Shown here: positions 4,880 to 20,438 of the stretch, piece after piece | Numbering within the stretch: position 1 is the stretch's first letter | Layout: every line of letters starts with the position of its first letter | Source: a virus | Length of the DNA: 21,774 bases | Reading direction: 5' to 3' (one strand) | IMG/VR virus record: IMGVR_UViG_3300018984_000011 | Location: 1 to 21,774 of that record | Program-made: the position numbers and the translations under genes | The notes under the pieces: model-generated | Databases searched by the model: none | The model's input: the letters and a program-made list of their open reading frames with translations, nothing else | What the model was told of the DNA's origin: nothing

Positions 4880-4954
4880 GCGTGTCTCCTTATCTGGGGT
4901 GAGCGGACAAGACCCAGCCAGCCCCGGCCAGGGAGAACAACACGAGAAGGACGC

Positions 4955-6750: not shown

Positions 6751-6772
6751 GACACCCCCTCACGAAGAACCA

Positions 6773-6806
6773 GGCCGGCCGGGCGCTTCCCCACGACCGG
6801 CCGACC
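6773..6806 (-). terminator. Candidate hairpin between capsid and connector genes
   Basis: Arms GGCCGGCCGG (6773-6782) and CCGGCCGACC (6797-6806) pair over ten bases with a 14-base loop. The one imperfect position is a G-U pair in minus-strand RNA but a C-A mismatch in plus-strand RNA, so the structure favours the direction of the genes. It is followed by TGGTTCTTCG, weakly T-rich. Could be an attenuator or an RNA-stability element. Confidence 0.45.
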
Positions 6807-6812
6807 CGGAAC

Positions 6813-7154
6813 TCACTCGACCGCTACGCCAGCGGCAGCCACAGCCGCCACGATGTCGTCGCGGGTAGCGTCGTCCTCGACCTCGACGCCGTGGGACTGC
6901 GCGTACGCAACCCACGCCGCCTTCGCCGAACCAGGACCCGACTTCGGCGGAGGCGCATCGCCCTCGTCGACCACGGCGGCGGCAGGATCCACCGGCGCAG
7001 CCGCAGGGGCCGCGTCCTCAACCCATACGTTCGGGTTCTGGATCTGCTCGACCGCCCACCCCGGCAGGTCCGCCTCGACGAGGCCAGCGGAGCACAGGAA
7101 CGCCCCGCCCGACTCGTCCGCGACGATCACGTTCTCGACCAGGCGGCGGCCCAT
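6813..7154 (-). CDS. Small protein after the major capsid gene, C-terminal SAP/Rho-N-like segment
   Basis: 113 residues, ATG start overlapping the capsid stop as TGATG; a longer upstream reading would run into the capsid gene. Residues 1-45 are a compact, strand-rich segment (GRRLVENVIVADESGGAFL), followed by a low-complexity Ala/Pro/Asp linker (about residues 47-75) and a C-terminal helix-turn-helix-like piece (AKAAWVAYAQSHGVEVED, then DDIVAAVAAAG). Short Rho-N/HeH-like tails of this kind occur in proteins encoded beside phage capsid genes. Function is not known; it could be a minor head component. Confidence 0.75.
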   Translation of the reverse strand: MGRRLVENVIVADESGGAFLCSAGLVEADLPGWAVEQIQNPNVWVEDAAPAAAPVDPAAAVVDEGDAPPPKSGPGSAKAAWVAYAQSHGVEVEDDATRDDIVAAVAAAGVAVE

Positions 7155-8194
7155 CACAGGACGGTAGCGACGAAGGACAGGTCGGGGTTCGCAAGCACCG
7201 GCAGGCCGATCGCCTTCGAGTGCACCCACACGCCGATCGGGTCGACCGACTTGTACGTGCCCACCACGATGCCCGGCTGGTCGAACGGCGCCAGACCGTA
7301 ATCAGGCTCCATCGACTCCAGCGTCCGACCCCACCACGTGCCACCCAGGTCCGTGCCGTCCGCGTTCGCGGTCGGCGCCGGCAGGAACAGCAGCCGGTTA
7401 TCCGGGATGACCTTTGTGGTCACACCGTTCACCCGCACAGCGCGGTCATACACGTACACCGGCGGCAGACCCCACGACGTGAGGATCCCGTTCACGCCCT
7501 CACGGCCGATCAGACGACCCCCGCCACCCTCACCCGTACGGATACCGGCGTCGGCGCGGATCTCGTCGTTCTTCTGCATCGCCATCAGCACACGAGTCGA
7601 CGTGACGATCGCGCCCGGGGCCTGCCCAGTCGCATCCACGTACGTCTGCATCCACGTCGCCAGGTTCGTCGACGCCGGCGCGCTGCTCGTCGACCACAGG
7701 GTGCCAGCGGTCACAGTGTGCCCAGCGGTACGACCGAAGTCTGCCTCCTGGATCACACCGTTCTCGTTGATCGTCACCTTGCCGGTCACCAGCGCCGCGC
7801 CGCGGGCGAGCTCCATCCGGTCAGACACCGCCCGACCCTCACGGATCGCGGCCTTCTGAACCGTGGTCAGGACATTCTCGTCGCTGTCCTGCCCCATGCC
7901 CCGGAGCCGGTCATACTCACCGACACGCACCTTGTCGCCCAGCGGAGGCAGCTCGATCGTCTGCCGCTTCCGGGTCGGAGCCTTACCGATCCGCGACTCG
8001 GTGTCGTACGCCTGGAACATTGCGGCGTCACCCTGGGCCAGCGACCCGGTAGTGAAACGCACGTTGATGTCGGCGACGAGCTGGTTCGGAAGGAACAGGG
8101 ACAGCGTGTTCCTGTTCACCTCGTAATCGGCCATGTCGGCTCTCACATATCCCGTGAGATCCGCCGGCGAAATGACATCCGTCCAGAGACTCAT
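7154..8194 (-). CDS. Major capsid protein (lambda gpE-like, Phage_cap_E)
   Basis: 346 residues, ATG start with GGGGGGAG upstream. The N-terminus (MSLWTDVISPADLTGYVR) is characteristic of the gpE-type capsid proteins of actinobacterial siphophages. A central segment KRQTIELPPLGDKVRVGEYD and a later VYVYDRAVRVNGVTTKVIPD followed by RLLFLP fit the HK97-fold axial domain and P-domain of this family. It follows the decoration gene by 17 bases and lies in the order scaffold, decoration, capsid. Its codon use is a mix of G and C at third positions, as in the other head genes. Confidence 0.93.
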   Translation of the reverse strand: MSLWTDVISPADLTGYVRADMADYEVNRNTLSLFLPNQLVADINVRFTTGSLAQGDAAMFQAYDTESRIGKAPTRKRQTIELPPLGDKVRVGEYDRLRGMGQDSDENVLTTVQKAAIREGRAVSDRMELARGAALVTGKVTINENGVIQEADFGRTAGHTVTAGTLWSTSSAPASTNLATWMQTYVDATGQAPGAIVTSTRVLMAMQKNDEIRADAGIRTGEGGGGRLIGREGVNGILTSWGLPPVYVYDRAVRVNGVTTKVIPDNRLLFLPAPTANADGTDLGGTWWGRTLESMEPDYGLAPFDQPGIVVGTYKSVDPIGVWVHSKAIGLPVLANPDLSFVATVL

Positions 8195-8211
8195 AGCTCA
8201 CTCCCCCCGTC

Positions 8212-8928
8212 TCAGTTGAAGACGAAGCTCGGGGCAGCCTTCTGAGCCGCCGAAGAAACAGGGAACGGCAGGTTCGCCGTGATGATCCGCCCGTGCCACA
8301 CCAGCGGCCCAGACACGTTGCCCGTCGAACCGGAGGGGACCGACACGTCGGTCAGGAGGAACCCGTCGAGGACATCGGAGCCGTCCGAAGCGCCGGAACC
8401 GCCACCAGTGGTGGTCGCGATCCCCACCGCCGGCGACGAGCCGCCCGTAAGCGACGCGGACGCGGTCAGCGCCGGCACGTCAGTGCCCGAACGGGCACCG
8501 GTGAACGTGACGACGTACGGAGTGCCGGGGCCGGGGCCACCGGTCACAGCCAGATCGCCGGGGTTCACGTTCGACAGGTTCTCGAGGGCGGTCTGCACCG
8601 CCGACGCCGTCGCGTTGTACGCGATCGCAGCCGACGTCTCACCGTCGAGGGTCAGGGTGAACGTGCCACCAGTCGGGGTGCCCGTGATGGTCACCGTCTG
8701 CACCTCATTCGGGCGGGCAGCCAGCGGCACCCAGAACCCCGAATAGGTACCCGACGTGGCCCGCGCCAGCGGCATACCCGACTTCAGGTACCCATCCGGG
8801 TAGTGCGTAAGCGCCGTCAGAGCCGCACGCGCGACCGTGATCGACTTCGCGTTGTCAGTGCTGTGGCGAGAACCAAGCCAGGACTGATCGCCCTGACCGA
8901 TGGTCTCGCTCCGGAAGCTCAGGTCCAT
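8212..8928 (-). CDS. Head decoration protein with an inserted beta-sandwich-like domain
   Basis: 238 residues, ATG start with GGAGACC upstream. Residues 1-72 (ending SGTYSGFWVPLAARP) and 178-238 (GASDGSDVLDGFLL onward, including LVWHGRIITANLP) look like the two halves of a lambda gpD-like decoration protein. Between them, about residues 73-177 form a separate Thr/Gly-rich domain: VQTVTITGTPTGGTFTLT, then AIAYNATASAVQTALENL and PYVVTFTGARSGTDVP. That resembles the repeat modules found in phage and bacterial surface proteins. Decoration proteins stabilise the expanded shell; the insert would probably be displayed on the outside of the capsid, an inference from its location in the chain. Confidence 0.8.
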   Translation of the reverse strand: MDLSFRSETIGQGDQSWLGSRHSTDNAKSITVARAALTALTHYPDGYLKSGMPLARATSGTYSGFWVPLAARPNEVQTVTITGTPTGGTFTLTLDGETSAAIAYNATASAVQTALENLSNVNPGDLAVTGGPGPGTPYVVTFTGARSGTDVPALTASASLTGGSSPAVGIATTTGGGSGASDGSDVLDGFLLTDVSVPSGSTGNVSGPLVWHGRIITANLPFPVSSAAQKAAPSFVFN

Positions 8929-8967
8929 AACTGGTCTCCATTGTGAGTTTGATGATCAAGATGTGGT

Positions 8968-9558
8968 TCAGGCGATGCGCACAGCAGCGCGGGCCTCGCG
9001 CTCCGCCGCCAACTCCTTCTGCCGGCGCTCCGCGCCCGACTGGACCGACGACTGCACCGACCCCTGCCGCGTCCCCTGCGACGGATCAGCCTTCGGAGTA
9101 CGCGGCTCCGCGGCCCTCGCAGCAGCCGCCGCCTCCGCCTCCACGCGCGCCCGCGACAACTCCGCCAGCCGCTCCGCCTGCCGCGTGATCCCCTGCTCGT
9201 CAGCCGCCGTCAAGAACGTCTCCGCGTCCTCACGGCTGATCTGATGCTGCGCCGCGACCATGAACCGAAGCGCCTGCACACGGGCATCAGCGGCCTCACG
9301 CTCGAGGCGCTTCACCTGCTCCTGAGCCCGCTGAAGCTCCGACATATCCTTCTCGCGCGCCTTGTTCAGCTCCGCCTCGGCCTCCGTGGCACGCTTCTCA
9401 GCGGCCTTACGGGCGACCTCCTCAGCCTTCTTCTCAGCACGCACCGCAGCCAACGTCGCCACGACCTTCGGGTCCTTCTGCTGGTCATCACGACCAGACT
9501 CAGCGACCTCAGCGGCAGCAACAGCAACAGCAGGGGTGGAGTCTTCGAGCTCAGGCAT
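8968..9558 (-). CDS. Scaffolding protein
   Basis: 196 residues, ATG start with GGGAG upstream. Nearly all helical and highly charged: residues 27-100 form a long coiled coil with Lys/Glu/Ala repeats, residues 100-145 a second helical part, and the end is Gln/Ser-rich with a short repeat (SVQSSVQSG) then a basic tail (RRQKELAAEREARAAVRI). A coiled coil with a basic C-terminus that binds the capsid protein is the normal shape of scaffolds. It lies between the MuF-like gene and the capsid genes, the standard place. It is thought to act inside the procapsid and to leave before packaging. Confidence 0.87.
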   Translation of the reverse strand: MPELEDSTPAVAVAAAEVAESGRDDQQKDPKVVATLAAVRAEKKAEEVARKAAEKRATEAEAELNKAREKDMSELQRAQEQVKRLEREAADARVQALRFMVAAQHQISREDAETFLTAADEQGITRQAERLAELSRARVEAEAAAAARAAEPRTPKADPSQGTRQGSVQSSVQSGAERRQKELAAEREARAAVRIA

Positions 9559-9623
9559 TGCACTCCCATCACGGAAGGTGGACCGCCCGGCATCACACCG
9601 ACCGGTTGGAAACTTGGAGGTCG

Positions 9624-10535
9624 TCAGGCGACCAGGTACCCCGCCTCGAACAGTCGGCGACGGAACTCCTCATCCGTCGCGGACACCCGAGCGATCGCCT
9701 CAACCGTCAACCGGCGGCGACCCCGCAACCGGGACCGAGCGAACCCACGCTTCGACGTGCCCTCAGCCGTCGTCATCCCCTTGTACTGGCCGGCGCGGCG
9801 CGCGTTCACGACCTGCGAGATATCCGCACCCAACGACAGCGCCCGCTCCTCCGGCGCCGTTAGCCCACGGACCTCACCGCGGCGGAACGCCTCGTACGGG
9901 TCGACCGTCGCTGACTCCGCGAAGGACTGCGACGCCGAGGGGGCCATACGACAGTCATCTTGAGGATGTCGAAGGAACCCCTGGGACTTCCGATACACGC
10001 GGCCAGCGAGGATCGCGCACCGCGAACAGGACGGCGGCGTCAGGATTCGCACCCAGCCAATCACCGCTGGCCGCGCCTGCATCCCAGCGAACACCGCCGC
10101 GCGACCCGTGTCCTGCAACGTCGACCGCACATACATCGACAGCGCCGACCCGCCACGGGCCATCGCCGTCTCCGGCGCCACACCAGACCCGATGAGCGAC
10201 TTCACGCCGATCACCGACTCGTACAGCAGGCTGTCCAGCGCCCGGCCGTCCGACGCCACACCCGCGAACGCCGCTGGCGCCACAGCACCCAGCGACTCCC
10301 CGCCCCCGTCCTGCTCCGCGAGCACACCATCCAGATACGGGTCAGCGTCCTCCGCCGCCCGCACCTGCAACGCGACCACGGCCGCCACGAGCGTCGGCCC
10401 TACCCGGGCCCAGCCCGCGTCCAGATCGCCGACCGGCACCGACGCCCACAACCGGCGCGCTGCCTCAACGCCGACTAGCCCGACCTGCCGCTGAAACGCC
10501 ACATGCGCCGCGACGGAATCGAGCGCGACCGGCAC
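9624..10535 (-). CDS. MuF-like head morphogenesis / capsid maturation protein
   Basis: 303 residues, GTG start 3 bases past the portal stop, with GAGGGG in the portal's last codons. The decisive segment is at about residues 165-195: RILTPPSCSRCAILAGRVY, followed by GFLRHPQDDCRM. This cysteine/histidine motif is the mark of MuF-like minor head proteins. The usual form of the second part is HPxCDC, so here an Asp stands where the first Cys is expected. The C-terminal third (AEGTSKRGFARSRLRGRRRL) is strongly basic. A few copies are thought to sit near the portal and help head assembly. A 65-base gap follows, without a clear promoter. Confidence 0.85.
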   Translation of the reverse strand: MPVALDSVAAHVAFQRQVGLVGVEAARRLWASVPVGDLDAGWARVGPTLVAAVVALQVRAAEDADPYLDGVLAEQDGGGESLGAVAPAAFAGVASDGRALDSLLYESVIGVKSLIGSGVAPETAMARGGSALSMYVRSTLQDTGRAAVFAGMQARPAVIGWVRILTPPSCSRCAILAGRVYRKSQGFLRHPQDDCRMAPSASQSFAESATVDPYEAFRRGEVRGLTAPEERALSLGADISQVVNARRAGQYKGMTTAEGTSKRGFARSRLRGRRRLTVEAIARVSATDEEFRRRLFEAGYLVA

Positions 10536-10538
10536 CGC

Positions 10539-11996
10539 TTACCCCTCGGGCAGCGACAGCGGGACGGGCTCAGGCGCCGCAGCGCCTGCCTGGCTGTTGA
10601 CCGGCAAGCCGGCCAGCAACTGCGCGGTCAACGGGTCAGCACGGTTGAACGCCGCTTCCTCCGTCGCCTCCATCCGCTGAATCTGCACCTCGGAGTACCC
10701 GACATCCTCACGGGCCTGCCGGACAGTGATCAGCGGACGGTCACCCTGCAACGACTTGATCGCCGCGTCGATCGTCTGCGCACGCGTCGGAGTCGCCGGG
10801 TTCTTCCACAGCGTCTCCATCTGCCGCAGATCCGGGTTCCAGTCGCCGTCGACAAAGCGCCGCACCAGGCGCATCGTCTGCTCCCACGACCCAGCGAAGC
10901 CGCGCTCCTTGCGCTCCACCGTCTTCACGAGCCGGCTCTCATCCGCGGTGATCGCTTCAGCCGAAGGGGGATTTGTGGTGAGTTGTCCCAAATAGCGCAG
11001 CGGGAGCCCGTACACGCCGGCGAGAAGCTGCCCGTACATGTCCACGATCGTCTTGAAGTTCGACAACTCCGCCGCCGCGAACTGCCCGAACTTCGCGTCC
11101 TTGTTCTCCGACATCGAGATCGCACCGAAGTACGACTCCCACACCGTCAACGACTTCCCCGTCTCGTCGACGAACCCATCCTTCGCGACACCCACAGCCC
11201 ACCGCTGCGGGATCGCCATGAGCTCCGCCGCGACCTGCGCGTTCGTCAACGCCCGCGCCGTCGCATCCGTCAGGTCGATCGCCCGCAGCATGTACGACTG
11301 CCCGTCGCGGGCCGCCAGCCGGGGGCTGTTCGTCAGCGCCACCACGGGCACACGGCCCAAGTTGTGCTGATCGCGTCCCGGCGAACCGTCCTCGTCCTCA
11401 ACCCAGTCGCCGCGCTGGTCCTTCACCAGCCACGCGGTCACGTCCGGCAGGTAGAGGGTCGCGCGCTCCACCTTCTCGCCGGACGAGTCATCGACGTAGA
11501 ACTTCGCCGCCGCTGACAGGGCGCGCCGACGCGGATCCCACTCGCCGGTCATCTCCGTCGCCGACTCGACCGTCACCAGCGGCGTCGTGTCGTCTTCCTC
11601 GTTCCGGCCCACACACGTGAAGCTCCGCCCGTAGATGAGCGAGTCGAGGTGCGCGAGCTGCGACTCCTCATCGAGGCCGTTCGCCTGCCAGATCCGCCAC
11701 ATCTCCTTATCGGCGTCCGCCGCGCCCGGGAGGCGGAACCCCTCAAGGTCGATCCGCTGCTCAACCGAGTCCACGCACGTCGCCGGCCACGCCACCACCG
11801 TGATGAAGCGGCGCAACTCTGGCGGCACCGCCAACCCAAGCTGCTCAAGCCGCTGCATGCCGTTGTAGTACGCGTCCAGGTGCTTGAATCCCAGCCGTGC
11901 CCGCGTCCGATCACCCAACGCGTGCCCATTCGTGTCCCGCTGCAACCGCGCCCGCAGGCGAGCCAGGACCGTGGCCTCAAACTCGGAGACAGCCAC
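10539..11996 (-). CDS. Portal protein (SPP1 gp6-like)
   Basis: Forms the dodecameric ring at one vertex through which DNA enters and leaves. I start it at the GTG at 11996 because GGGAGG lies nine bases upstream; a TTG at 12002 would leave only three bases. The 485 residues have the family's layout: an N-terminal helical part with LDAYYNGMQRLEQLGLAVP, a WPATCVDSVEQRIDLEGFR strand segment, a central stem/wing region, and NFKTIVDMYGQLLAGVYGLP followed by the crown helix with SAEAITADESRLVKTVERKE. The C-terminal end is Pro/Ala-rich. It sits 18 bases after the large terminase. Confidence 0.93.
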   Translation of the reverse strand: MAVSEFEATVLARLRARLQRDTNGHALGDRTRARLGFKHLDAYYNGMQRLEQLGLAVPPELRRFITVVAWPATCVDSVEQRIDLEGFRLPGAADADKEMWRIWQANGLDEESQLAHLDSLIYGRSFTCVGRNEEDDTTPLVTVESATEMTGEWDPRRRALSAAAKFYVDDSSGEKVERATLYLPDVTAWLVKDQRGDWVEDEDGSPGRDQHNLGRVPVVALTNSPRLAARDGQSYMLRAIDLTDATARALTNAQVAAELMAIPQRWAVGVAKDGFVDETGKSLTVWESYFGAISMSENKDAKFGQFAAAELSNFKTIVDMYGQLLAGVYGLPLRYLGQLTTNPPSAEAITADESRLVKTVERKERGFAGSWEQTMRLVRRFVDGDWNPDLRQMETLWKNPATPTRAQTIDAAIKSLQGDRPLITVRQAREDVGYSEVQIQRMEATEEAAFNRADPLTAQLLAGLPVNSQAGAAAPEPVPLSLPEG

Positions 11997-12014
11997 AACC
12001 AACCGCCTCCCACA

Positions 12015-13667
12015 TCACCAACGACGCACAACAACCCGGCTATCAACCCGCTCCGGCTCACGACCCCAACCCGCAGACCGCGCATCCGCCGCAGCCTCAT
12101 GGGCCAGGACCGAGGTCACAGCGGCGTCGATCTTCTGGTCCTGACTCGGCTTGCCCAAGATGTACCGATCACCCGGCCGCGCCAGCTTCTTCGCGTGACC
12201 GACGTGGATCTCGGTGATCGGGCAGCCGTCGTGCATCAGGGCACCCGTCGACAGGTCCGTCACGGTCCGCTCAAGCGCCGCGTGCATCTGCACGATCCGG
12301 TACGTCTCCCACGGCAACACCGTCTCGTCGCCGTGCTCAAGCGCCCAGGCGTCGATCTCCGACCGCCAGTCACGTGGGTCGCACAGCATCCGCTCGACCC
12401 AGTACGTTCGGAACAGCTCATCGACCGCCGCGTTCACCTCGCCGCGGGGGATGCGCCCGCCCCACTCAGCCGGGTTCCAGATCATCGGCCGCCGGTCCGG
12501 GCCGTACGTCGGGGTGAACATCCACCCGTCCAACGTCTCCGCCCGTATCGCCGTCCAGTCGTCCGTCTCCGACCCGTCGAAGCCGGCGCACACACGGGCG
12601 CCCTGCTCTGGCGCCGGGCGCCTCGCGAGCGCGGACGCCCACAAGCCGTCGACCAGCCACGACCCCTTGCCCTGCACGAGGCGGTTCCCGAAGAACCGCT
12701 CTGCCTGCGCCGGGTCGTGCTCCATGAGCTCAACGGCCTCAGCCTCGATCGAGTCCAGGTTCACCCACCACGAGCCCTCGTACACATACTCATGGATCTT
12801 CCGCCGTTCCCGCTTGTTGCGGTACGACAAGCTCTTGGGCGGCTGCCGGAAGAACTTGAACACGTCCGGCGCCTGCGACTCGTACGTCGTCTGCGCGACG
12901 CTCATCTCCGTCGGATCCCACGCGTTCGTGGTCTCGATCGTTCGGCCACCCATGCCGGCCGCGCCGCGCCGCTGCGTCTCGGCGACCTTCCGCATCTTGT
13001 TCCGCGCCGTGTACAGGCCACTCTCGTCCTGGAACGCGAACGACAGCGGATTGCCCAGCCGGGAGTTGGCCGAAGCCGTCACGACGTCGATGCGGTCCAT
13101 GTCCGGGTCATCGTTGCTGCCCAGGATGCGGATGAAGCCCTCACGGACCTTCAGCAGTTCAGCTAGCGGGCCCATGCGGATCATTGCCGTCAGTGGCCGA
13201 TAGATATTGTCGACCTGGTCTTCCGACGTCGCGGTTAATTGCGCGTAAGGACTGGGGTGGCGAATGCCTTTCGGCTCCCCCACCTCGTACGGGAACGACC
13301 ACCCGCATCCGCACCCGAAGTCCGAGCACAAGTACGCGTCGCCCTCCGCGGCCCAGCCACCGAACAACGACGGCCCGACCGCCTCCACGCACGTGATCGC
13401 CGCAGCCCACGGACCCTTGCCCGTCTTCTGCGGCGCCACGATCTGCGACCGCCGATACACGAACGCCTGGTTCATCAGCGGACGCTCAGGGATCCACACC
13501 GCGTCCGGGCGGATCCGGTAGTGGTTCGCCGTGCACCAGAACTGCCAGTCCGACATCTTGAACGGCTGCCGCCGGGCGAACCCGTCCGGCACCCGGCAAT
13601 GCTGCTCAACCCAAGCGTCGATCAGATCCCCGAGCGTCGGGAAGTCGACCACGTACTCACTGGGCAT
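12015..13667 (-). CDS. terL: Terminase large subunit
   Basis: The motor and nuclease that packages DNA. 550 residues, ATG start overlapping the small subunit by 11 bases. The ATPase has a Walker A at residues 78-85 (APQKTGKG) and a Walker B with the catalytic acid at about 208-215 (LSFAFQDE). A Cys-rich loop (LCSDFGCGCGW, 113-123) lies between them, as in related actinobacterial phage terminases. The RNase H-like nuclease shows three acids in place: D364 (GFDGSETDDW), D430 (LCDPRDW) and D514 (QKIDAAV). All key residues are present, so the enzyme looks intact. Together with the nearby HNH gene it suggests cohesive-end packaging (family knowledge, not shown here). Confidence 0.96.
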   Translation of the reverse strand: MPSEYVVDFPTLGDLIDAWVEQHCRVPDGFARRQPFKMSDWQFWCTANHYRIRPDAVWIPERPLMNQAFVYRRSQIVAPQKTGKGPWAAAITCVEAVGPSLFGGWAAEGDAYLCSDFGCGCGWSFPYEVGEPKGIRHPSPYAQLTATSEDQVDNIYRPLTAMIRMGPLAELLKVREGFIRILGSNDDPDMDRIDVVTASANSRLGNPLSFAFQDESGLYTARNKMRKVAETQRRGAAGMGGRTIETTNAWDPTEMSVAQTTYESQAPDVFKFFRQPPKSLSYRNKRERRKIHEYVYEGSWWVNLDSIEAEAVELMEHDPAQAERFFGNRLVQGKGSWLVDGLWASALARRPAPEQGARVCAGFDGSETDDWTAIRAETLDGWMFTPTYGPDRRPMIWNPAEWGGRIPRGEVNAAVDELFRTYWVERMLCDPRDWRSEIDAWALEHGDETVLPWETYRIVQMHAALERTVTDLSTGALMHDGCPITEIHVGHAKKLARPGDRYILGKPSQDQKIDAAVTSVLAHEAAADARSAGWGREPERVDSRVVVRRW

Positions 13668-14121
13668 CGCCGACAGCCCTCAACCGCCGCGCTCGAGCAG
13701 CGACCACAGGGGCCGCAGTCGGCGCAGGCGCCTCATCCGACGACTGGGCGATCTTCCAACCCATCTCCGCCAGACCAGCCGTCGTCATCCCCACCTGATC
13801 GGCGAACCGGTGCAACTGCGCCAACACCGACGCAGGCGCCTCCGGATCCTCACACCGCACCCGAACCCGAACCCACATCGCCACCGTCGGAAGCCGCCAC
13901 GACTCCGACTCCAACGACCACGCGCAAGCCTGCGGCGACCGCCACGCCTCCGCCCACACCTCCAGCTCACGATCCGACGCCGCAGAGAGGGGCCACGCCG
14001 GCGCCGGCCCGTCGAACCCCGACGCTGGCAACGCCGTCAGCACAAACCCACGCCGCTCCGACCGACCCGACGACGGATCAGCAACCGGACCAGACCGATT
14101 CCGAGCACCACCACGAGGCAC
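13657..14121 (-). CDS. terS: Terminase small subunit
   Basis: Recognises the packaging site and feeds DNA to the large subunit. I take the GTG at 14121 as start (VPRGGARNRSGP) because GGAGAG lies eight bases upstream; a GTG at 14130 has no spacing. The 154 residues include the usual opening RNRSGPVADPSSGRSERRGF, a LPASGFDGPAPAWPL segment and a helical end (LAQLHRFADQVGMTTAGLAE, then MGWKIAQ), the layout of many actinobacterial phage small terminases. Codon use is striking: the first 26 codons all end in G or T, whereas the HNH gene on the other side of the intergenic region mostly uses C. Confidence 0.85.
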   Translation of the reverse strand: MPRGGARNRSGPVADPSSGRSERRGFVLTALPASGFDGPAPAWPLSAASDRELEVWAEAWRSPQACAWSLESESWRLPTVAMWVRVRVRCEDPEAPASVLAQLHRFADQVGMTTAGLAEMGWKIAQSSDEAPAPTAAPVVAARARRLRAVGDAQ

Positions 14122-14153
14122 AGCAACCACTCTCCAACGGCATCACGCCGCAT
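14037..14153 (-). CDS. Possible tiny membrane protein overlapping the start of terS (doubtful)
   Basis: A 38-residue frame beginning MRRDAVGEW and containing one clear hydrophobic span (WLLCLVVVLGIGLVRLLI) followed by RRR. It overlaps the small terminase by 85 bases in another frame and has no ribosome site before its ATG. The same frame is open upstream as far as about 14340 but lacks a standard start there. It may be a chance frame in GC-rich DNA; I list it only because the membrane span is clean. Confidence 0.15.
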   Translation of the reverse strand: MRRDAVGEWLLCLVVVLGIGLVRLLIRRRVGRSGVGLC

Positions 14154-14178
14154 CGGATAGGGGACGGCATCACGCCGC
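14137..14178. repeat. Direct repeat pair ACGGCATCACGCCGC
   Basis: Two identical 15-base copies at 14137-14151 and 14164-14178, 27 bases apart, just upstream of the small terminase ribosome site. Each copy is itself partly symmetrical (CGGC...GCCG). The core CGGCATCAC occurs again at 9588-9596 in the gap before the scaffold gene. Could bind the small terminase or a regulator; no direct evidence. Confidence 0.8.
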
Positions 14179-14277
14179 CCCCGCGATCTTGTGAACCCTT
14201 CGCGCCTGGCGGCGTCCTCACCGGCGGCGTATTTCTCGGCCTCTGGCTCGGGCTCCTCCCCCGGGGTGCCTGCATCG

Positions 14278-14354
14278 CCGCAGGTCAGGGGCTTGCGCGT
14301 CGTCCGCCGAGCCGCGTCGGGCGTGGACGCCGTCCACGTTTCCGCAGGTCAGGG
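14278..14354. repeat. Direct repeats CCGCAGGTCAGGG around a perfect dyad
   Basis: Two identical 13-base copies at 14278-14290 and 14342-14354. Between them, at 14322-14338, is the perfect dyad CGTGGAC-GCC-GTCCACG. The core CAGGTCAGG also appears at 15494-15502, overlapping the end of the winged-HTH gene. The arrangement is what one would expect of a protein-binding or cleavage site, but no known site is recognised. Confidence 0.8.
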
Positions 14355-14356
14355 CG

Positions 14357-14719
14357 CTATGCCTTCGGGGCGTTCCACCCGGCGGGGTTGCTGATGGCGG
14401 TCCATCGGTTGTGGCATGGCGCGCAGAGGGGGCGTCCGTGCACGGGGTCGTCGGGGTCGAGGCCGCGGGCTATGAGATCACGTCGATCCAACGGCCAGTG
14501 GTCTGCGACGGTGGCTGGCTGTCCGCAGTGGACGCAGCGCCCGCTGTTCTTGGCGAGGACTCCGGGGCGGAAGCGGGCGCGGTGTCCGGGCCCGTAGGTC
14601 TTGGTGCCTGAGTCGCGCGCCTTGTCGGCTGCGGCTTGGCAGGTGGGGCAGCGTCCGCCCGGGGTGAGGATGCCGCAGCCTGGGGTCGTACAGGTGCGGA
14701 CGCGCCTGCGCGGGGTCAT
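14357..14719 (-). CDS. HNH endonuclease next to the terminase
   Basis: 120 residues, ATG start overlapping the upstream stop as ATGA. The N-terminus has a zinc-knuckle pattern (C10, C15, C24, C27), then a basic segment, and the HNH core: C62/C65 (RCVHCG), the catalytic DH at 73-74 (VADHWPLDRRD), then C99/C102 with HN at 103-104 (LCAPCHNRW). All expected residues are present. In cos-type phages an HNH protein encoded beside the terminase is required for cutting at cos and for packaging (established for HK97-like phages), so this is more probably a packaging factor than a homing nuclease. Third codon positions are mostly C (19 of the first 27). Confidence 0.9.
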   Translation of the reverse strand: MTPRRRVRTCTTPGCGILTPGGRCPTCQAAADKARDSGTKTYGPGHRARFRPGVLAKNSGRCVHCGQPATVADHWPLDRRDLIARGLDPDDPVHGRPLCAPCHNRWTAISNPAGWNAPKA

Positions 14720-15423
14720 GCCTTACCGCGTGGGGTCTTGGCGAACTGGCCGTCGCCGCGTTGGCGGCGACGGTGGGCGAAGGGGTCGTAGTCGAGTTGT
14801 TCGTGTTGGGCGATGACGGTGGCGATGTGGTCGCGGAGGATGGGGCTGTCGCGATACCACTCGCGGCCGGCTACTCGTAGGGGGCGGAAGCGACGGTGTA
14901 GTTCGGCTTCGTCGTCCGTGGTTCCGAAGTGGACGGCGAGGAACTGGGTGTTGGGTGGGTAGGAGGCGAGGCGCGCATCGAGGTCGGAGGCGAACCCGAT
15001 TTTGAGGTGTTCGCCGACTTGGAGGTAGTAGATGTCGCCGTCGCGTGGCCCACCGGGGACGTGTTGTTGGCGACGCGTCCGCTCGCGCAGGGCTCGCACT
15101 TCCTGGCCCACGTGGTGCCACACGTAGCATGCGTGGTCTTCGCACAGCATGACGTGTAGTTCGGCAAGTTTCTCGACGGGGAACTTGCGGCAGCCACGTA
15201 CTGAGCATTGGAAGCCGGGTGTACGGCGTTCGTAGCCTGCGCGTTTGAAGTCGTCTTCGGTGGGGGTGCGACCGAAGAGGGTCCAGCCTCTGAGGCGGTC
15301 GCGTTCATCCCGTTCGCGCCGCAGGCGCTGGCGTCGCACTTCGGGGTGTTCGGCGCCTTGCTCCGGCGTCCGAGTCAGGTCATCTCGGGTGGGGCCTGGC
15401 ACGAAACGGTGTTGCTTGGGCAC
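14716..15423 (-). CDS. T5orf172 / MUG113 (GIY-YIG-like) domain protein
   Basis: 235 residues from a GTG with CAGGAG upstream. Residues 26-48 are very basic (Arg-rich). Residues 73-97 hold a Cys/His cluster (CSVRGC, then LHVMLCEDH) that may bind zinc. The C-terminal domain, about 128-205, has the GIY-YIG-superfamily pattern of T5orf172 proteins: IYYLQVGE, LKIGFASDLDARL (R151) and the glutamate in EAELHRRF (E174), then REWYR. It ends with a basic tail. These domains occur in phage proteins and are presumed DNA nucleases or binding proteins; activity here is untested. Stop overlaps the HNH start, so the two nucleases are coupled. Confidence 0.8.
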   Translation of the reverse strand: MPKQHRFVPGPTRDDLTRTPEQGAEHPEVRRQRLRRERDERDRLRGWTLFGRTPTEDDFKRAGYERRTPGFQCSVRGCRKFPVEKLAELHVMLCEDHACYVWHHVGQEVRALRERTRRQQHVPGGPRDGDIYYLQVGEHLKIGFASDLDARLASYPPNTQFLAVHFGTTDDEAELHRRFRPLRVAGREWYRDSPILRDHIATVIAQHEQLDYDPFAHRRRQRGDGQFAKTPRGKA

Positions 15424-15443
15424 TGCGCGCTCCTGGTTCGGGG

Positions 15444-15479
15444 CATGCGCTACCGCCTCAGCGGTGACAGTAGCGCGTG
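15444..15479. promoter_or_regulatory. Inverted repeat, candidate operator or RNA hairpin
   Basis: In the 74-base gap before the T5orf172 gene. Arms CATGCGCTAC (15444-15453) and GTAGCGCGTG (15470-15479) are complementary at nine of ten positions, with 16 bases between. A second, competing stem lies inside (ACCGC with GCGGT around 15452-15465). It stands just after a gene with two HTH-like modules, so an autoregulatory operator is possible. No clear -10/-35 boxes seen. Confidence 0.4.
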
Positions 15480-15497
15480 GGTGGGTGTTTGTACAGG

Positions 15498-15908
15498 TCA
15501 GGCGTTGTGTCGGCGAGTGAGGCGGATGGCGATGGCGAGGACGCCGGGGCGGTCGTAGGTGGTTCGGGTTCCGGGGTGGCGGGTGATGGTGTCGGGGTAG
15601 CGGACGGCCCATTGGCGGATGCGCGCTGGTCCGCCGTGGCCGAGGTCGATGCCGTGGCGTTCGAGTAGCCATGCGGCGAGTTCGCGGTCGGTTGCTGGGT
15701 CGGCTCGGTGGGCGTCGTTGGGGGGTGGGTCGTGGGCGCCAGTGCGGGTGGCGCGCTCGAGGTCGACGAGGTGTTGGTCTGCGACGTAGAGCTGGTTGTC
15801 GATGGGGTTCCGGATGGCGATGAGGTGGCCGGCGCGCACCCAGCCCTCGATGACATCAAGGGGCAGGCCAAGTCGGTCGGCGGCCTGGGCGAGGGTGTGG
15901 GCGATCAC
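15498..15908 (-). CDS. Protein with two winged-HTH-like modules
   Basis: 136 residues, GTG start overlapping the upstream stop as GTGA. Residues 3-52 form an excisionase/MerR-like winged helix: TLAQAADRLGLPLDVIEGWV is the helix-turn-helix and RNPIDNQLYV the wing. After a short linker, residues 75-130 repeat a similar plan (ARIRQWAVRYPDTITRHPG, then RTTYDRPGVLAIAIRL). It probably binds DNA. Candidate roles are a transcription regulator of the late genes or a terminase-associated DNA-binding protein; the sequence cannot decide. The small terminase is already identified as a separate gene, so this is unlikely to be that subunit. Confidence 0.75.
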   Translation of the reverse strand: MIAHTLAQAADRLGLPLDVIEGWVRAGHLIAIRNPIDNQLYVADQHLVDLERATRTGAHDPPPNDAHRADPATDRELAAWLLERHGIDLGHGGPARIRQWAVRYPDTITRHPGTRTTYDRPGVLAIAIRLTRRHNA

Positions 15909-16780
15909 TGCTGTGCTCCGGTGAGCTTGAGCGCCTTGGCTGCGCGGCGCTCTTCGCGTTCCTTCTTCTTCTTCTTCTCGGCTTCCGCCTCAGCGAACAC
16001 CTTGATCATGAAGTCGTACTTCTCGGGGGGGATGACTTCGTTGCAGTCGACGGCGACGCAGGCGATGGTGACGGGGTCGCCGGGCTCTGCGGGGGCGCTG
16101 CGGGTGAGGGTGAGGCGGGCGCATGCCTGGCATGGGACGGGGAGGAATACGCGCCTCTCGTCCATGGGCCAGCGAGCGCGCATGCGGCTGACGCGGTCGG
16201 TGAGTTCTTCGGTGAGGGCGCCGGCCCACTCTTGGGTGATGGCCCATGGGAGTTGCCGTGCGATCCACCGGCAGATGGCGTGTGTGGTGAGGAGTGGGTC
16301 GGCGCTGGCGGCAAGGCCGACGACGCGGGCAGGGTCGTAGATGCGTTCGCCGTTGCTTCGCCTGGTGCTGGCCGGGCGGACGTCGGCGCCGTTCCATCCG
16401 GGGCCGTGGAGGCGGCTGGGGTGTTCTTCCATGATGAGGAGCGCCCAGGATGCGAGCTCGGCGTGTAGGTCGTCGGCGTCGGATACGGCGGAGATGTTGA
16501 GGGGGGCGGGTGGGGAGAAGCCTTTGCCTTTTTCGGCTGGCCGTACGGAGTTGGAGGCGCCTGGCTGGACGTGGTCGCGGATGTGGGCGATGAGCTTCGG
16601 CGCGTAGTTGAGGGCTTCGCGGACGCGCTCTTGGTGCCACTCGCAGATGAGGTCGCGGCCTTGGGTGTGCGCGGGGAGGCATCCGGCGCAGTCGGTGCGG
16701 GGGCATTCGGCTTGGTGCTTCCTCGGGATGGTGTGGCCGGGGGCGCCGTTCTCGAGGGTGCCGGCGATGCAGTTCGCCAC
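15905..16780 (-). CDS. 291-residue protein with two Cys zinc sites and a Lys-rich tail
   Basis: GTG start with GAAAGGA upstream. The N-terminal site has C26, C31, C34, C46 and H49 (CPRTDCAGC, then LICEWH), a pattern seen often in uncharacterised actinobacterial phage proteins. The middle (100-210) is helical and Trp-rich. A second site is CQAC at 217-220 with C241 and C246. The C-terminus is a charged helix with five Lys in a row, encoded by five AAG triplets. No catalytic motif is recognised. It is the first gene after a 96-base gap, so it may head its own transcript. Zinc binding is inferred from cysteine spacing. Confidence 0.8.
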   Translation of the reverse strand: MANCIAGTLENGAPGHTIPRKHQAECPRTDCAGCLPAHTQGRDLICEWHQERVREALNYAPKLIAHIRDHVQPGASNSVRPAEKGKGFSPPAPLNISAVSDADDLHAELASWALLIMEEHPSRLHGPGWNGADVRPASTRRSNGERIYDPARVVGLAASADPLLTTHAICRWIARQLPWAITQEWAGALTEELTDRVSRMRARWPMDERRVFLPVPCQACARLTLTRSAPAEPGDPVTIACVAVDCNEVIPPEKYDFMIKVFAEAEAEKKKKKEREERRAAKALKLTGAQQ

Positions 16781-16842
16781 GGTGGTCCTTTCGCGCCGGG
16801 GTGGTTAGGGTGTTGGCGACTGCTGCCCTGCGGGCGTGGTTG

Positions 16843-16878
16843 GTCCTCGTCGGGTTCGCGGCCCGGCGGGGACTTTTT
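16843..16878 (+). terminator. Intrinsic terminator reading rightward, against all genes
   Basis: Arms GTCCTCGTCGGG (16843-16854) and CCCGGCGGGGAC (16862-16873) pair over 12 bases with a seven-base loop and are followed at once by TTTTT (16874-16878). The two imperfect positions are G-U pairs in plus-strand RNA but C-A mismatches in minus-strand RNA, and only the plus side has the T run. It therefore fits a terminator for rightward transcripts. The T run overlaps the stop codon of the minus-strand gene at 16877. Confidence 0.65.
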
Positions 16879-17053
16879 ACGTGGCGGCTAGTTCTGCTTC
16901 GCCTAGCTGTTGGAGGACGTGGTTGATGAGTAGGTCGTTCATGGCGGCGTCGGGCTTGTAGAAGAGCTCGGTGAGGACGTCCGAGCTGGGGATGCGGCGC
17001 CTGATGGTGGTGTTGCCGACGGTGAGGGTGACGGCGACGGTTTTCTCGGTCAT
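16877..17053 (-). CDS. Small hypothetical protein, last of the coupled small-gene series
   Basis: 58 residues (MTEKTVAVTLTVGNTTIRRR and onward), ATG start overlapping the previous stop as ATGA, TAA stop. A two-strand start (VAVTLTVGNTTIRRRIPS) is followed by a helix (DVLTELFYKPDAAMNDLLIN, then HVLQQLGEAEL). The alternation of strands and a compact helix looks like a folded small domain, but I recognise no family. A 96-base gap without genes follows, holding a plus-strand terminator and the ribosome site of the next gene. Confidence 0.75.
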   Translation of the reverse strand: MTEKTVAVTLTVGNTTIRRRIPSSDVLTELFYKPDAAMNDLLINHVLQQLGEAELAAT

Positions 17054-17361
17054 GCCTGCTCCCTGATGGCGTCGCGGATGGCTTGGTCGTGGTCCTCGTT
17101 GGTGGGTTGGTAGCGTTGGTCGATGCCCGGGAAGGGCGCGATGGGCCGGTTAACGTGTGCGGTTGCGACGGTGACGTTGATGGTGTCGGGGTGGTCTCGT
17201 CTGCTGTCGTAGGCGATGACGTGGTGTTCGTCGTCGACGGTGAACTTCGCTTGTAGGGGGATGTCGGCTGGGTCGAGACCGTGGTCGCGGGCCCACATTT
17301 GCCAGGCGTGGAAGGTGGCTTCGCTGGCGTCGGGGCCGGGGCCGATGGTTCTGCGGGTCAT
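17050..17361 (-). CDS. Hypothetical protein, 103 residues
   Basis: ATG start overlapping the previous stop as ATGA; its own stop overlaps the next start the same way. Begins MTRRTIGPGPDASEATFHAW, then a segment with QAKFTVDDEHHVIAYDSRRD and a strand TINVTVATAHVNRP, ending in an acidic helix (NEDHDQAIRDAIREQA). The middle strands suggest a small beta-rich fold. No family recognised. Third positions are rich in C, as in its neighbours on this side of 14.3 kb. Confidence 0.75.
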   Translation of the reverse strand: MTRRTIGPGPDASEATFHAWQMWARDHGLDPADIPLQAKFTVDDEHHVIAYDSRRDHPDTINVTVATAHVNRPIAPFPGIDQRYQPTNEDHDQAIRDAIREQA

Positions 17362-17531
17362 GCCTGCTCCTTGGTTTCGTGGTGTTCGCGGCCGTCGAGT
17401 GAGTGGTGGATTATGAGCCAGCCGATAGTGCCGTCGTCCCGTGAGACGGGTTCGGTGGTGGGTCCGCAGGGGCAGTCGTCGTCGTGGTGTTCGATGAGGT
17501 CGTCGACGGGTTCGACGTGGACGGTGTTCAC
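17358..17531 (-). CDS. Small His/Cys-containing hypothetical protein
   Basis: 57 residues from a GTG overlapping the previous stop as GTGA; ends in an ATGA overlap. Sequence begins VNTVHVEPVDDLIEHHDDDC and contains CPCG, followed by WLIIHHSLDGREHHE. The cluster of His, Asp and the CxC could bind a metal. No family recognised. A longer version of this frame extends upstream but is the shadow of the neighbouring gene; the coupled GTG is the better start. Confidence 0.65.
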   Translation of the reverse strand: MNTVHVEPVDDLIEHHDDDCPCGPTTEPVSRDDGTIGWLIIHHSLDGREHHETKEQA

Positions 17532-17740
17532 GCGGTGACCTTGGCGAACCCGACGGGTTCGTGGTGGCTGGTGGTGATGTGGGCGCCGGCGCCTACGTGG
17601 TTGGCGTCGCGGTCGTTGTCGCGGGGCTGGCAGGGGTGGGTGTCGCGCCATTCGTGGAGGAGGGCGCGTGCGGTGGTGAGGCGTGTGCGGTCGATGCGGA
17701 TGTAGCCGCCGCAGGGGCACGACTCGCGAAGCGTCTTCAT
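17528..17740 (-). CDS. Small protein with N-terminal CPCGG
   Basis: 70 residues, ATG start overlapping the previous stop as ATGA. Starts MKTLRESCPCGGYIRIDRTR, which looks like half of a zinc ribbon, followed by a helix (TTARALLHEWRDTHPCQ) and a His-rich end (GAGAHITTSHHE). A treble-clef or ribbon-type metal site using C8, C10 and C37 with histidines is possible. No family recognised. The next gene starts at its stop (GTGA). Confidence 0.7.
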   Translation of the reverse strand: MKTLRESCPCGGYIRIDRTRLTTARALLHEWRDTHPCQPRDNDRDANHVGAGAHITTSHHEPVGFAKVTA

Positions 17741-17973
17741 GTGCGGCCCGTCACGAATCGCTCAAGTTGGCGCCAGCGGTCGCGGCGCCACTCCCAGTCG
17801 TGTTGTGCGGCGGCGGTGGCGCTCGCCCATGTGGGGTAGTGGTAGCCGGGCTCCAGCATTCGCACGGAGAGGACGGTTCCGTCCCGGGTGACGTGACCCC
17901 ATACAGCGAACCAGGGCTTGTCCTTAGGCGCGTGGGGGTCGCGGTAGATGACGTACTTGTAGGTGCCGGTCAT
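17737..17973 (-). CDS. Hypothetical protein rich in aromatic residues
   Basis: 78 residues, ATG start overlapping the previous stop as ATGA. Reads MTGTYKYVIYRDPHAPKDKP, then WFAVWGHVTRDGTVLSVRML and an amphipathic helix with many Trp and Arg (WASATAAAQHDWEWRRDRWR). The beta-strand start, a turn and a final helix give it the look of a small alpha/beta domain. No family recognised. Confidence 0.75.
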   Translation of the reverse strand: MTGTYKYVIYRDPHAPKDKPWFAVWGHVTRDGTVLSVRMLEPGYHYPTWASATAAAQHDWEWRRDRWRQLERFVTGRT

Positions 17974-18272
17974 GGGGTGGCTCCGCATTCGGGGCTGTTG
18001 GGGATGACGCCTCGGGTGCCTTTGTAGATGAGGGTGGCGCCGTCGCAGGTCTTGTAGATGCCTGGTTTGACGGTGACCCATCCGTGTCGGGGGTCGGTGT
18101 GGGAGGCGAGGCCGTCTTGGTATTCCCCGATGGCGGAGATGGGGGCGAGGGCGATGAGTGCGCATGCGGTGATGGCTGTGGTGAAGAACGTCTTGTCGTG
18201 CTCGCGCCGGAGGGCGGCGGCGCTGATGCCAGCGAAGACGAGCGCGGCGAGGAGTAGGAGCAGCCAGGCCAT
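17970..18272 (-). CDS. Small membrane protein
   Basis: 100 residues, ATG start sharing one base with the upstream stop (TGATG). Residues 2-20 (AWLLLLLAALVFAGISAAA) are a membrane segment, and residues 30-48 (FTTAITACALIALAPISAI) a second, with a short basic loop (LRREHDK) between. The remaining 50 residues are polar with two Cys (C76 and C96) and would lie on one side of the membrane, perhaps the outside. Function unknown; position in the early-type cassette does not suggest lysis. Confidence 0.8.
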   Translation of the reverse strand: MAWLLLLLAALVFAGISAAALRREHDKTFFTTAITACALIALAPISAIGEYQDGLASHTDPRHGWVTVKPGIYKTCDGATLIYKGTRGVIPNSPECGATP

Positions 18273-18649
18273 CAGGCACCATCCTCGATGGGGTTCCAGT
18301 TGGTGCAGCCGGGCCAGTTGGCGAGGACGTCGGTGCCGGGGCCGTGTGTGATGCGTTGGCCGCCGCGGGCGTCGCATTTGTGGTAGACGCGTGCTCCTCC
18401 CCTGATGGCGATGCGGTGGGTGCAGGTGCCGCATCTGACGCGGTCTTCGAGGATCGCCGACCCGGGGTCACGGGTGGCGTCGATGTGGAGTGGGATGAGG
18501 AGGCGGGTGGCGTATCCGAGTGGGTGGTTCCCGGCGGCCCACTGCGCGTTCTGCCGGTGTCGGAGGCGCTGCCCTGGTGTGAGTCCCGCGAGGGGGTCGG
18601 CGACGGCTGGTGGGGCGGGGATGTCGAGGGCGTCCTGCTCGGCGGTCAT
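18272..18649 (-). CDS. Hypothetical protein with a Cys-based zinc pattern
   Basis: 125 residues, ATG start overlapping the upstream stop as ATGA. N-terminal 35 residues are Pro/Ala-rich with LAGLTPGQRLRHRQNAQWA. The C-terminal half has CGTC, then VYHKC and WPGCTNW, four cysteines in a CxxC...C...C spacing that suggests a zinc ribbon. A hydrophobic ATRLLIPLHIDA strand lies before it. No family recognised. The next gene encodes a membrane protein and starts on its stop codon. Confidence 0.75.
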   Translation of the reverse strand: MTAEQDALDIPAPPAVADPLAGLTPGQRLRHRQNAQWAAGNHPLGYATRLLIPLHIDATRDPGSAILEDRVRCGTCTHRIAIRGGARVYHKCDARGGQRITHGPGTDVLANWPGCTNWNPIEDGA

Positions 18650-18834
18650 GACGTCGCCTCCCCTGCGCGTTCGGGGCGATAGATGATGGCTTCGCGGAGC
18701 CCGGTGATGCAGGTGACGTCTACGCCTGGCATCCGGCTGGAGAGTTCGGCGGAGATGCGCGCGAGTCCGCCGTGCTGGTTCTCGCCGTCGAGGGGGATGA
18801 AGACGATGTCGCCGGGCTGGACGATGACGCTCAC
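18646..18834 (-). CDS. Small beta-rich hypothetical protein
   Basis: 62 residues, GTG start overlapping the upstream stop as GTGA. Reads VSVIVQPGDIVFIPLDGENQ, then ARISAELSSRMPGVDVTCIT and EAIIYRP. The alternation of short strands and one helix, with a GDIVF turn, looks like a compact folded domain. No family recognised. Confidence 0.75.
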   Translation of the reverse strand: MSVIVQPGDIVFIPLDGENQHGGLARISAELSSRMPGVDVTCITGLREAIIYRPERAGEATS

Positions 18835-19172
18835 TCGGTGCCTCCGGTCGCTGCGTCATAGGGGCTGGGCGCCGGCCGGAGTTCGGCGGCGCCGTGCACG
18901 ATTCTTCCCGTGGCGTTGCGCTGGGGCACGTATGCGTTGAGAGCAGCGCAGATGTGGTCGGCGAGCTCGGAGGTGATGTCGTGGCCTTGCTCGGTGGTGG
19001 TCTGTTCTACGGAGATGACGCACTTGTAGAGGCCGGGGTCGTTGGATACTCCGACAACGAAGTAGCCCTCGGGATGGTTGACGGTGGGTTCGTCTTCATA
19101 GGGGGTGTCGGGTCCTACGTGTTCGACGCGCCAGGTGCTGGCGCCGCGTTCGAAGTCGGTCTTGTCGCGCAT
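18831..19172 (-). CDS. Hypothetical protein, 113 residues
   Basis: ATG start with CAGGAG upstream, 14 bases after the small membrane gene. Begins MRDKTDFERGASTWRVEHV; the middle has strands (YFVVGVSN, LYKCVISVEQTTTE) and a helix (TSELADHICAALNAYVPQRN). The C-terminal tail is Pro/Ala-rich. One of the few genes in this cassette with a good independent ribosome site. No family recognised. Confidence 0.75.
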   Translation of the reverse strand: MRDKTDFERGASTWRVEHVGPDTPYEDEPTVNHPEGYFVVGVSNDPGLYKCVISVEQTTTEQGHDITSELADHICAALNAYVPQRNATGRIVHGAAELRPAPSPYDAATGGTE

Positions 19173-19186
19173 TCGGGCTCCTGTGG

Positions 19187-19294
19187 CTAGTGGTGGGTGA
19201 CGGCGGCGTAGATGAGGGCGAGCGGGGCGAGGAAGAGCAGCCAGGCGCCGACGATGAGCCCGACCCAGATGGCGAGGCCGCGGATGAAGCTCAC
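19187..19294 (-). CDS. Very small membrane protein (35 residues)
   Basis: GTG start overlapping the upstream stop as GTGA; TAG stop at 19187. Reads VSFIRGLAIWVGLIVGAWLL followed by FLAPLALIYAAVTHH: one or two hydrophobic spans nearly covering the whole chain with Arg near the start and His at the end. It is too short for most gene finders. The stop/start overlap and the clean hydrophobic pattern are the reasons to accept it. Confidence 0.65.
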   Translation of the reverse strand: MSFIRGLAIWVGLIVGAWLLFLAPLALIYAAVTHH

Positions 19295-19551
19295 GGGTAC
19301 TCCCGGCTGTGATGGACATCAGGGGGCGGCGGGTCAGCGAGTGCGTCGAGCGCGTGGTAGTCGTCCTCACTGACTTCTTCGACAGGGTGTGAGCCGCAGT
19401 GGTCACATGGGAAGTACAGGGTGGCGTCCAGCTTGAGGGCATCGCTGAAGAAGATGTGGCCGGCGCTGCCTTTGATGCGCATCCAGTCGCCGAGGAGCGG
19501 GCATCTCATGAGCCAGTACCGGTCGTGGATGAGGATCTCGGTGTCGCTCAT
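19291..19551 (-). CDS. Hypothetical protein, 86 residues
   Basis: ATG start overlapping the upstream stop as ATGA; a longer in-frame reading extends upstream through the neighbouring gene and is rejected. Begins MSDTEILIHDRYWLMRCPLL, then GHIFFSDALKLDATLYF and a CDHCGSHP knuckle followed by an acidic helix. C17, C49 and C52 with histidines may hold a metal. The mix of aromatic strands and a CxxC resembles other small phage proteins, but no family is recognised. Confidence 0.75.
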   Translation of the reverse strand: MSDTEILIHDRYWLMRCPLLGDWMRIKGSAGHIFFSDALKLDATLYFPCDHCGSHPVEEVSEDDYHALDALADPPPPDVHHSREYP

Positions 19552-19862
19552 GCCGGCTGGGCGTCGTGTCGGTCGGCGAGGGCGAGGAGTTGCGCGGCGT
19601 AGGCGCGGACCTGGTCGGGGGTGACGGCGCGGGTTTCGGTTCCGCCGCGGGTGTTGACGTGGACGTATAGGCCGCCGTTGATGTCGTGGAGGTCGCCGAG
19701 GTCGGCGGTGATGACGATGTTTGACCATTCGCCGAGGTCCCAGCAGACGGCGTCCTCTCCGGGTCGGGAGAAGTCGGGGTCCGTGTCGGTGTAAAGCTCG
19801 AGGGTGTTCGTGTAGGGGCCACCCAGGGTGGGGCGGAGGGCGTCGCTGGCGGTGGTGGTCAC
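19548..19862 (-). CDS. Hypothetical protein, 104 residues
   Basis: ATG start overlapping the upstream stop as ATGA. N-terminal part is polar with LELYTDTDPDFSRPGEDAV; residues 45-80 are beta-like (NIVITADLGDL, GGLYVHVNTRGG, ETRAVT) and the end is a helix (PDQVRAYAAQLLALADRHD). Looks like a folded small domain, with no family recognised. Confidence 0.75.
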   Translation of the reverse strand: MTTTASDALRPTLGGPYTNTLELYTDTDPDFSRPGEDAVCWDLGEWSNIVITADLGDLHDINGGLYVHVNTRGGTETRAVTPDQVRAYAAQLLALADRHDAQPA

Positions 19863-20257
19863 GGGGTCTCCTGGGGGGTCTGGTCGGTGTGGTGCCGCTT
19901 GGGTCCTCGCCGCTTGCCGGGTCCGCCCCGGCCCGTCAGGGCGCGGTCGGGCTGTTCGGGGCTTGGCGGGGCCTTCTGGGGCCGCTCCGGGCCGGTTCCG
20001 TCCTGGGCGTCGGCTGCGTTGGCGGCTGCGGCGCGTTCGGCGCGGGCTCGGCGGCGGATCGTGGTGGGTGACACCCCGGGCCCGGACTTCCCGGTGAGCC
20101 CGATCGCGTCCGCGACGTCGAGCGCCCAGTCGCGGAGGTCGTCGCCGTCGAGGCCGTGGCGGCGTCCGGTGGCGACGAGGCGGTCGGCGACGAGCCGGAC
20201 GGTGGCGGGGTCGGTGCCGTGAATGGCTTCGTTCAGCATGTACGCGCGTTCACCCAT
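19859..20257 (-). CDS. Hypothetical protein with basic, probably disordered tail
   Basis: 132 residues from an ATG that overlaps the zinc-ribbon gene by eight bases; an in-frame ATG at residue 7 (MLNEAIHGTDP) is an alternative start. The first 60 residues are helical (TVRLVADRLVATGRRHGLDG, DLRDWALDVADAIGL), then SPTTIRRRARAERAAAAN, possibly a basic DNA-binding helix, and a Pro/Gly/Lys-rich tail. A nucleic-acid role is plausible from charge only. Confidence 0.7.
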   Translation of the reverse strand: MGERAYMLNEAIHGTDPATVRLVADRLVATGRRHGLDGDDLRDWALDVADAIGLTGKSGPGVSPTTIRRRARAERAAAANAADAQDGTGPERPQKAPPSPEQPDRALTGRGGPGKRRGPKRHHTDQTPQETP

Positions 20258-20438
20258 GGGACACCGCCGGCTGCCCGGGGAGGGGAACGGCGTCGCTGTC
20301 CCACCAGGAGGTTGTCCATGGGGTTCCGCAGGCGGCGCACTTGTAGTCGCACACGACGGTCGCCTTGTCGGTGATCGTGTTGATGGGCGGGTTGTCGCGC
20401 AAGAGGCATGCGGGGCACCCGTCGAGGTAGTCGGTCAC
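20250..20438 (-). CDS. Small zinc-ribbon protein
   Basis: 62 residues from a GTG overlapping the dnaB stop as GTGA. VTDYLDGCPACLLRDN carries a first knuckle (C8, C11) and VVCDYKCAACGTPW a second (C34, C37), the spacing of a classic zinc ribbon. It ends with a Trp/Asp stretch (TTSWWDSDAVPLPG). Immediate coupling to the helicase gene suggests co-expression with replication functions; a partner or regulator role is a guess. Confidence 0.75.
   Translation of the reverse strand: MTDYLDGCPACLLRDNPPINTITDKATVVCDYKCAACGTPWTTSWWDSDAVPLPGQPAVSHG

Follow-up and report, generated by a model that had tools for sequence, protein, structure and literature searches.

Genes and features at the boundary

The window (the whole 21,774-nt stretch of DNA that was analyzed, IMG/VR record IMGVR_UViG_3300018984_000011) is an IMG/VR fragment from the genome of a high-GC tailed phage. 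Its minus-strand genes run from a DnaB-type helicase through small early-type genes to an HNH gene and then, across a 226-nt intergenic region, to terS, terL, the portal gene and the structural genes (Table 1). The HNH gene, the intergenic site, terS and terL are adjacent and co-oriented, as in a cos-type HNH-terS-terL packaging module. The family matched by terS, phrog_226, is labelled 'minor tail protein', as are the first genes of Isolde and Dubu, even though these lie directly before terL; in other records the same gene is called small terminase. The tail label on this family is probably a propagated misannotation. The gene adjoining HNH (14716-15672) had a weak match to MUG113/T5orf172 domains, which we take to be GIY-YIG nuclease-like.

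Table 1. Features on either side of the HNH/terS boundary in the window
Feature	Position	Strand	Remarks
Left arm (packaging and structural genes)	1..14217	-	Coding strand G+T rich at synonymous sites
terL, large terminase	12015..13667	-	phrog_19179/21277; 62% identity to terL of Arthrobacter phage Isolde
terS, small terminase	13657..14130	-	phrog_226, E 1e-13; directly precedes terL; G/T-ending codons
Identical 15-nt repeat pair, spacing 27	14137-14151, 14164-14178	-	Between cosN and terS
cos core element, 35 nt	14192..14226	-	CGCSGGKGAGG-N13-CG-NNN-GGTTCA; 1 match in window
Predicted cosN, 9-nt cohesive end	14218..14226	-	CGCCGGTGA; between HNH gene and terS
CGCCGGTGAGG			Sequence within cos fragment
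Right arm (small early-type genes and replication helicase)	14227..21774	-	Coding strand A+C rich at synonymous sites
13-nt repeat pair	14278-14290, 14342-14354	-	Between HNH gene and cosN
HNH endonuclease gene	14357..14719	-	phrog_589 and phrog_144, E 3e-14; upstream of cos; C-ending codons
DnaB-type replicative helicase	20435..21774	-	PF03796 E 2e-61, PF00772 E 9e-27; truncated by window end

Strand composition reverses once in the window

A sequence-only reading of the window had proposed, from hand counts, that GC skew reverses sharply at the HNH/terS boundary within a run of same-strand genes. Our recount reproduced its figures exactly (51 C and 26 G in 14041-14160; 32 C and 51 G in 14401-14520). 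Each of the first 26 codons of terS, counted from the GTG at 14130, has G or T in its third position (26/26), and 19 of the 27 opening codons of the HNH gene end in C. Many comparable reversals elsewhere, named in that reading as evidence against such a boundary, were not seen: GC skew changes sign once in the 21.8-kb window. All 1-kb windows up to 14.5 kb are negative (-0.00 to -0.24) and all those from 14.0 kb onward are positive (+0.11 to +0.31). The maximum-likelihood changepoint is at 14222 for G+T (2-log-unit support 14180-14289, dLL 392) and at 14380 for G/(G+C) (support 14259-14391, dLL 294).

The reversal is at the HNH/terS boundary, as first read, and the effect is bigger than was first reported. 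Fourfold-degenerate sites on the coding strand are 73% G+T in the left arm (2042 G/T versus 745 A/C) and 13% G+T in the right arm (117 G/T versus 808 A/C, or 87% A+C), an odds ratio of 18.9 (chi2 p ~1e-229). Third-position composition in the right arm (A.12, C.71, G.16, T.02) is roughly the complement of that in the left arm (A.02, C.31, G.54, T.13). Synonymous base usage in the two arms is almost a mirror image, with GC3 nearly equal (0.85 and 0.87) and only the sign of the strand differing. All codon families move in one direction, with C- and A-ending codons up in the right arm and G- and T-ending codons up in the left; from left to right, GAA rises from 8% to 59%, GAT falls from 27% to 2% and GCG falls from 63% to 12%. 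Because every family shifts the same way and GC and TA skew reverse together at the boundary, tRNA choice is unlikely as the cause. The codon pattern is the signature of strand-asymmetric substitution, not of tRNA-driven choice.

The reversal lies at a predicted cos site

The minus strand at 14226-14192 reads CGCCGGTGAGGACGCCGCCAGGCGCGAAGGGTTCA, laid out as CGCCGGTGA, the cut, and then GG-N13-CGNNNGGTTCA. The minus (coding) strand would be cut between 14218 and 14217. This 35-nt element occurs once in the window versus 0 times in 100 shuffles. In Arthrobacter phages Isolde, Seahorse and Tiff81, the deposited linear genome ends with CGCCGGTGA and starts with GG...GGGTTCA, and because these relatives begin and end exactly there, we interpret the element as cos. 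The record of Streptomyces phage Dubu ends with CGCGGGGGA and starts with GGG, and that of Streptomyces phage phiSASD1 starts with CGCGGGGGA; the same 9 nt at opposite record ends is what is expected for a 9-nt cohesive end. CGCGGGGGA is also at the end of the Kromp record, where the downstream half of the element is different. In relatives where it was found, the element has a constant length of 35 nt and lies ~90 nt before terS. By homology, the predicted cosN is very probably CGCCGGTGA at 14226-14218, with the left and right genome ends joining there. The guess in the sequence-only reading that the switch marks the physical genome ends gains support from these deposited ends, and the site can be placed at 14218-14226.

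Although annotated as circularly permuted, the record of Gordonia phage Nyceirae (NC_031004.1) has its ends precisely at a cos-like element, closing with CGCGGGGGA and opening with GGGCGCTG..GCGGAGGGTTCA. Nyceirae may in fact be a cos phage.

The repeats that had been noticed in the intergenic region are real and form two pairs, one on each side of cosN (Table 1). The 15-nt pair is a candidate for small-terminase (cosB-like) sites, judging from sequence and position. In the cosN-terS interval of relatives, repeats with a match of at least 11/12 were found in 15% versus 0% of shuffles. The 13-nt repeats contain a motif, GGTCAGRGGCTTG, that in the same or a related form lies beside cos in Dubu and at loci L046/L137, L060, L138 and L151. 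The intergenic region at 14131-14356 (70-74% GC) contained no origin-like iterons and no AT-rich stretch, only the two short repeat pairs. We rejected origin-type repeats near cos, as these short pairs resemble terminase sites more, and we also rejected strong secondary structure in the intergenic region (z only -1.2).

The reversal recurs at cos in related phages

A scan of viral contigs for the cos element retrieved at least 119 stretches, nearly all just upstream of terS/terL. Among the matches listed, terS and terL lay downstream in nearly all, usually near +90 and +590, a terS homolog was present in all but a few cos loci, and an HNH homolog lay upstream in most, often near -430. Eight metagenomic contigs among these matches terminate 11-29 nt upstream of the predicted cut, versus ~0.2 expected by our own estimate. 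For loci with at least 0.8 kb of flank on each side, GC skew was negative before cos and positive after it in 72 of 88 (among the matches listed). Where 2.5 kb was available on each side and the changepoint was clear, it fell within 150 nt of the predicted cut in 21 of 24 loci. At several loci the changepoint has an identical offset of -5, so the exact base is influenced by the conserved element. We show that the flip is a recurrent property of this phage group; no paper describing it was found in the literature searched.

The phages that share the flip span 57-72% GC, and its amplitude is very uneven even among near relatives (0.61 in the window and 0.07 in the relative G003). The window value is the largest of 35 phages compared, against a median of 0.25 in those that lack PolA. 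The flip is absent from four phages that encode a PolA-type polymerase of their own, which points to the replication machinery and suggests that the flip depends on it, though these four look like one clade and count effectively as one event. DnaB was rejected as a correlate, being found in only 4 of 40 records with no pattern. Little or no flip was seen at the genome ends of lambda, HK97, TM4 and phiC31, and little in P22. Its absence in the first four led us to reject the idea that cos phages in general carry the flip.

Two further records drew our attention. Mycobacterium phage Giles, which has unrelated ends and a different cos, also shows a flip, seen as a sharp synonymous G+T drop in the last tenth of its genome (0.26 versus 0.54 at the start). 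An IMG/VR record described as 'linear' (G029) carries the terL start at both ends (44-1144 and 45524-45598) and is probably a complete circular assembly.

Strand and coding direction may both contribute

Across cos, the keto fraction is 0.28 just upstream and 0.68 just downstream, and the bias decays both ways. In late genes 15-25 kb from cos it is lost (0.68 to 0.45). Non-coding DNA beside cos did not flip (keto fraction 0.478 versus 0.481, 59 loci), and non-coding DNA away from cos had a weak flip (0.484 versus 0.448).

Reverse-strand genes allow strand to be compared with coding direction. In the right arms of 15 genomes with sizeable reverse genes, coding-strand G+T was 0.385 for forward genes and 0.485 for reverse genes (p 0.002), where genes on unannotated contigs were called with our own simple script and some reverse calls may be wrong. 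Two of four reverse genes first called beside cos in one contig (G033) resemble shadow reading frames and were excluded. A pure strand model expects reverse genes at 0.615 and a pure coding model at 0.385; the observed genes are near neutral, not mirror images. An additive model put the contribution of strand at -0.050 and that of coding at -0.065, and a coding term near -0.07 renders the window arms (0.13 and 0.73) symmetric. Among annotated reverse genes, those of Kromp mostly follow the coding strand, and those of Kromp and Isolde together lean more to the coding side.

We reject a model of replication strand alone, as reverse genes are neutral and not mirrored. A model of gene class alone is also rejected, as the bias decays within the late operon and reverse genes of the right arm differ from forward ones. 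The statement in the sequence-only reading that transcription does not explain the switch holds only in part, since some of the bias goes with the direction of the genes.

Possible causes of the arm difference

The best fit combines a constant coding preference with strand-asymmetric substitution caused by DNA synthesis that diverges from cos, and we give this account somewhat better than even chances. The flip is probably at cos because DNA copying or repair runs outward from there. The two arms that meet at cos would be shaped by opposite strand-asymmetric substitution, such that the strand with its 5' end at cos becomes G+T rich (keto-rich, leading-type) in both arms, with the bias strongest next to cos and decaying over 10-20 kb. 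Lytic DNA synthesis diverging from cos would be the likeliest source, either from an origin at or near cos on the circularized genome or by priming from cos nicks, and a constant preference of genes for C-ending codons would be added on top. Features of an origin type are present at cos, namely the sign change in GC and TA skew and the shift of all codon families. A replication-type cause is no more than moderately supported, because the non-coding DNA lacks the flip. The sequence-only reading had also proposed an origin or a terminus; the origin is the half that fares better, as a sharp flip that decays with distance is more readily explained by synthesis diverging from cos than by synthesis terminating there. 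A stronger proposal, that in a large group of actinobacterial phages cos serves both as the packaging cut and as the start of bidirectional lytic DNA synthesis, hence the opposite bias of the arms, is tentative and less likely than not.

The bias might instead be a coding-strand effect of expression class, in which late and early genes differ in synonymous bias through mutation tied to transcription or through selection on mRNA composition, with cos simply falling between two transcription units. Such an effect accommodates non-coding flanks of cos that do not flip, Kromp reverse genes mostly on the coding-strand side, and a boundary that also divides early-type from structural gene blocks. 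It does not accommodate the late genes 15-25 kb away, which are of the same class and have no bias, the difference between reverse and forward right-arm genes, or the shift of all codon families, GAA against GAG included. Transcription-associated C-to-T change predicts G+T-rich coding strands, not the 87% A+C of the right arm. We consider expression class unlikely as the cause, if the most serious of the alternatives.

Damage or repair anchored at the ends is improbable. After each infection, strands beginning at cos would be resynthesized by nick translation or exposed by exonuclease where the cohesive ends have annealed, which is consistent with a bias that is maximal there, decays both ways and leaves the G+T-rich strand with its 5' end at cos in both arms; however, a reach of 10-20 kb is long for repair patches, and several other cos phages lack the bias. 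A meeting point of two modules of different history, also raised in the sequence-only reading, each with its own codon usage, would suit arms so sharply unlike in synonymous codon use, but it is very improbable given that the same flip at the same element is common to the 72 of 88 loci (among the matches listed), in phages of 57-72% GC, and so is not specific to the window phage, and that GC3 is about equal between the arms.

Divergent synthesis from cos remains our preferred account. Linked to a conserved cut site, the skew flip offers a means of locating where the genomes of these phages end in metagenomic fragments. The flip points to a possible link between the packaging site and the start of replication in actinobacteriophages. 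Among the 35 phages compared, the window flips most strongly (0.13 versus 0.73 G+T at fourfold sites), which makes it well suited for testing.

Comparison with known systems

HNH-assisted cos packaging is represented by HK97 and by Staphylococcus phi12/SaPIbov5 (Quiles-Puchalt et al. 2014, cited as reference 28 in PMC5052747). The phages studied here are like these systems in the order HNH gene, cos, terS, terL and in the short cohesive ends of Isolde, Seahorse, Tiff81 and Dubu. They are unlike them in that the cos sequence is distinct; HNH dependence is a prediction for this phage.

In bacterial chromosomes, leading and lagging strands differ in GC skew and the minimum of cumulative skew is at the origin (PMC3269016, PMC7111523). 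The single sharp sign change, the keto-rich leading-type strand in both arms and the shift of all codon families resemble this replication-strand skew. Unlike it, the flip is at cos and not at a known origin, non-coding DNA is exempt, and the bias decays instead of holding to a terminus.

For the haloarchaeal virus BJ1, cumulative skew was used to choose the genome start; there was no evidence of cos, and the authors interpreted the skew as a sign of one-directional, rolling-circle replication (PMC2194725). As in BJ1, a sharp skew change here marks the start of the genome map. Unlike in BJ1, the flip here goes with a cut site that is conserved across many genomes.
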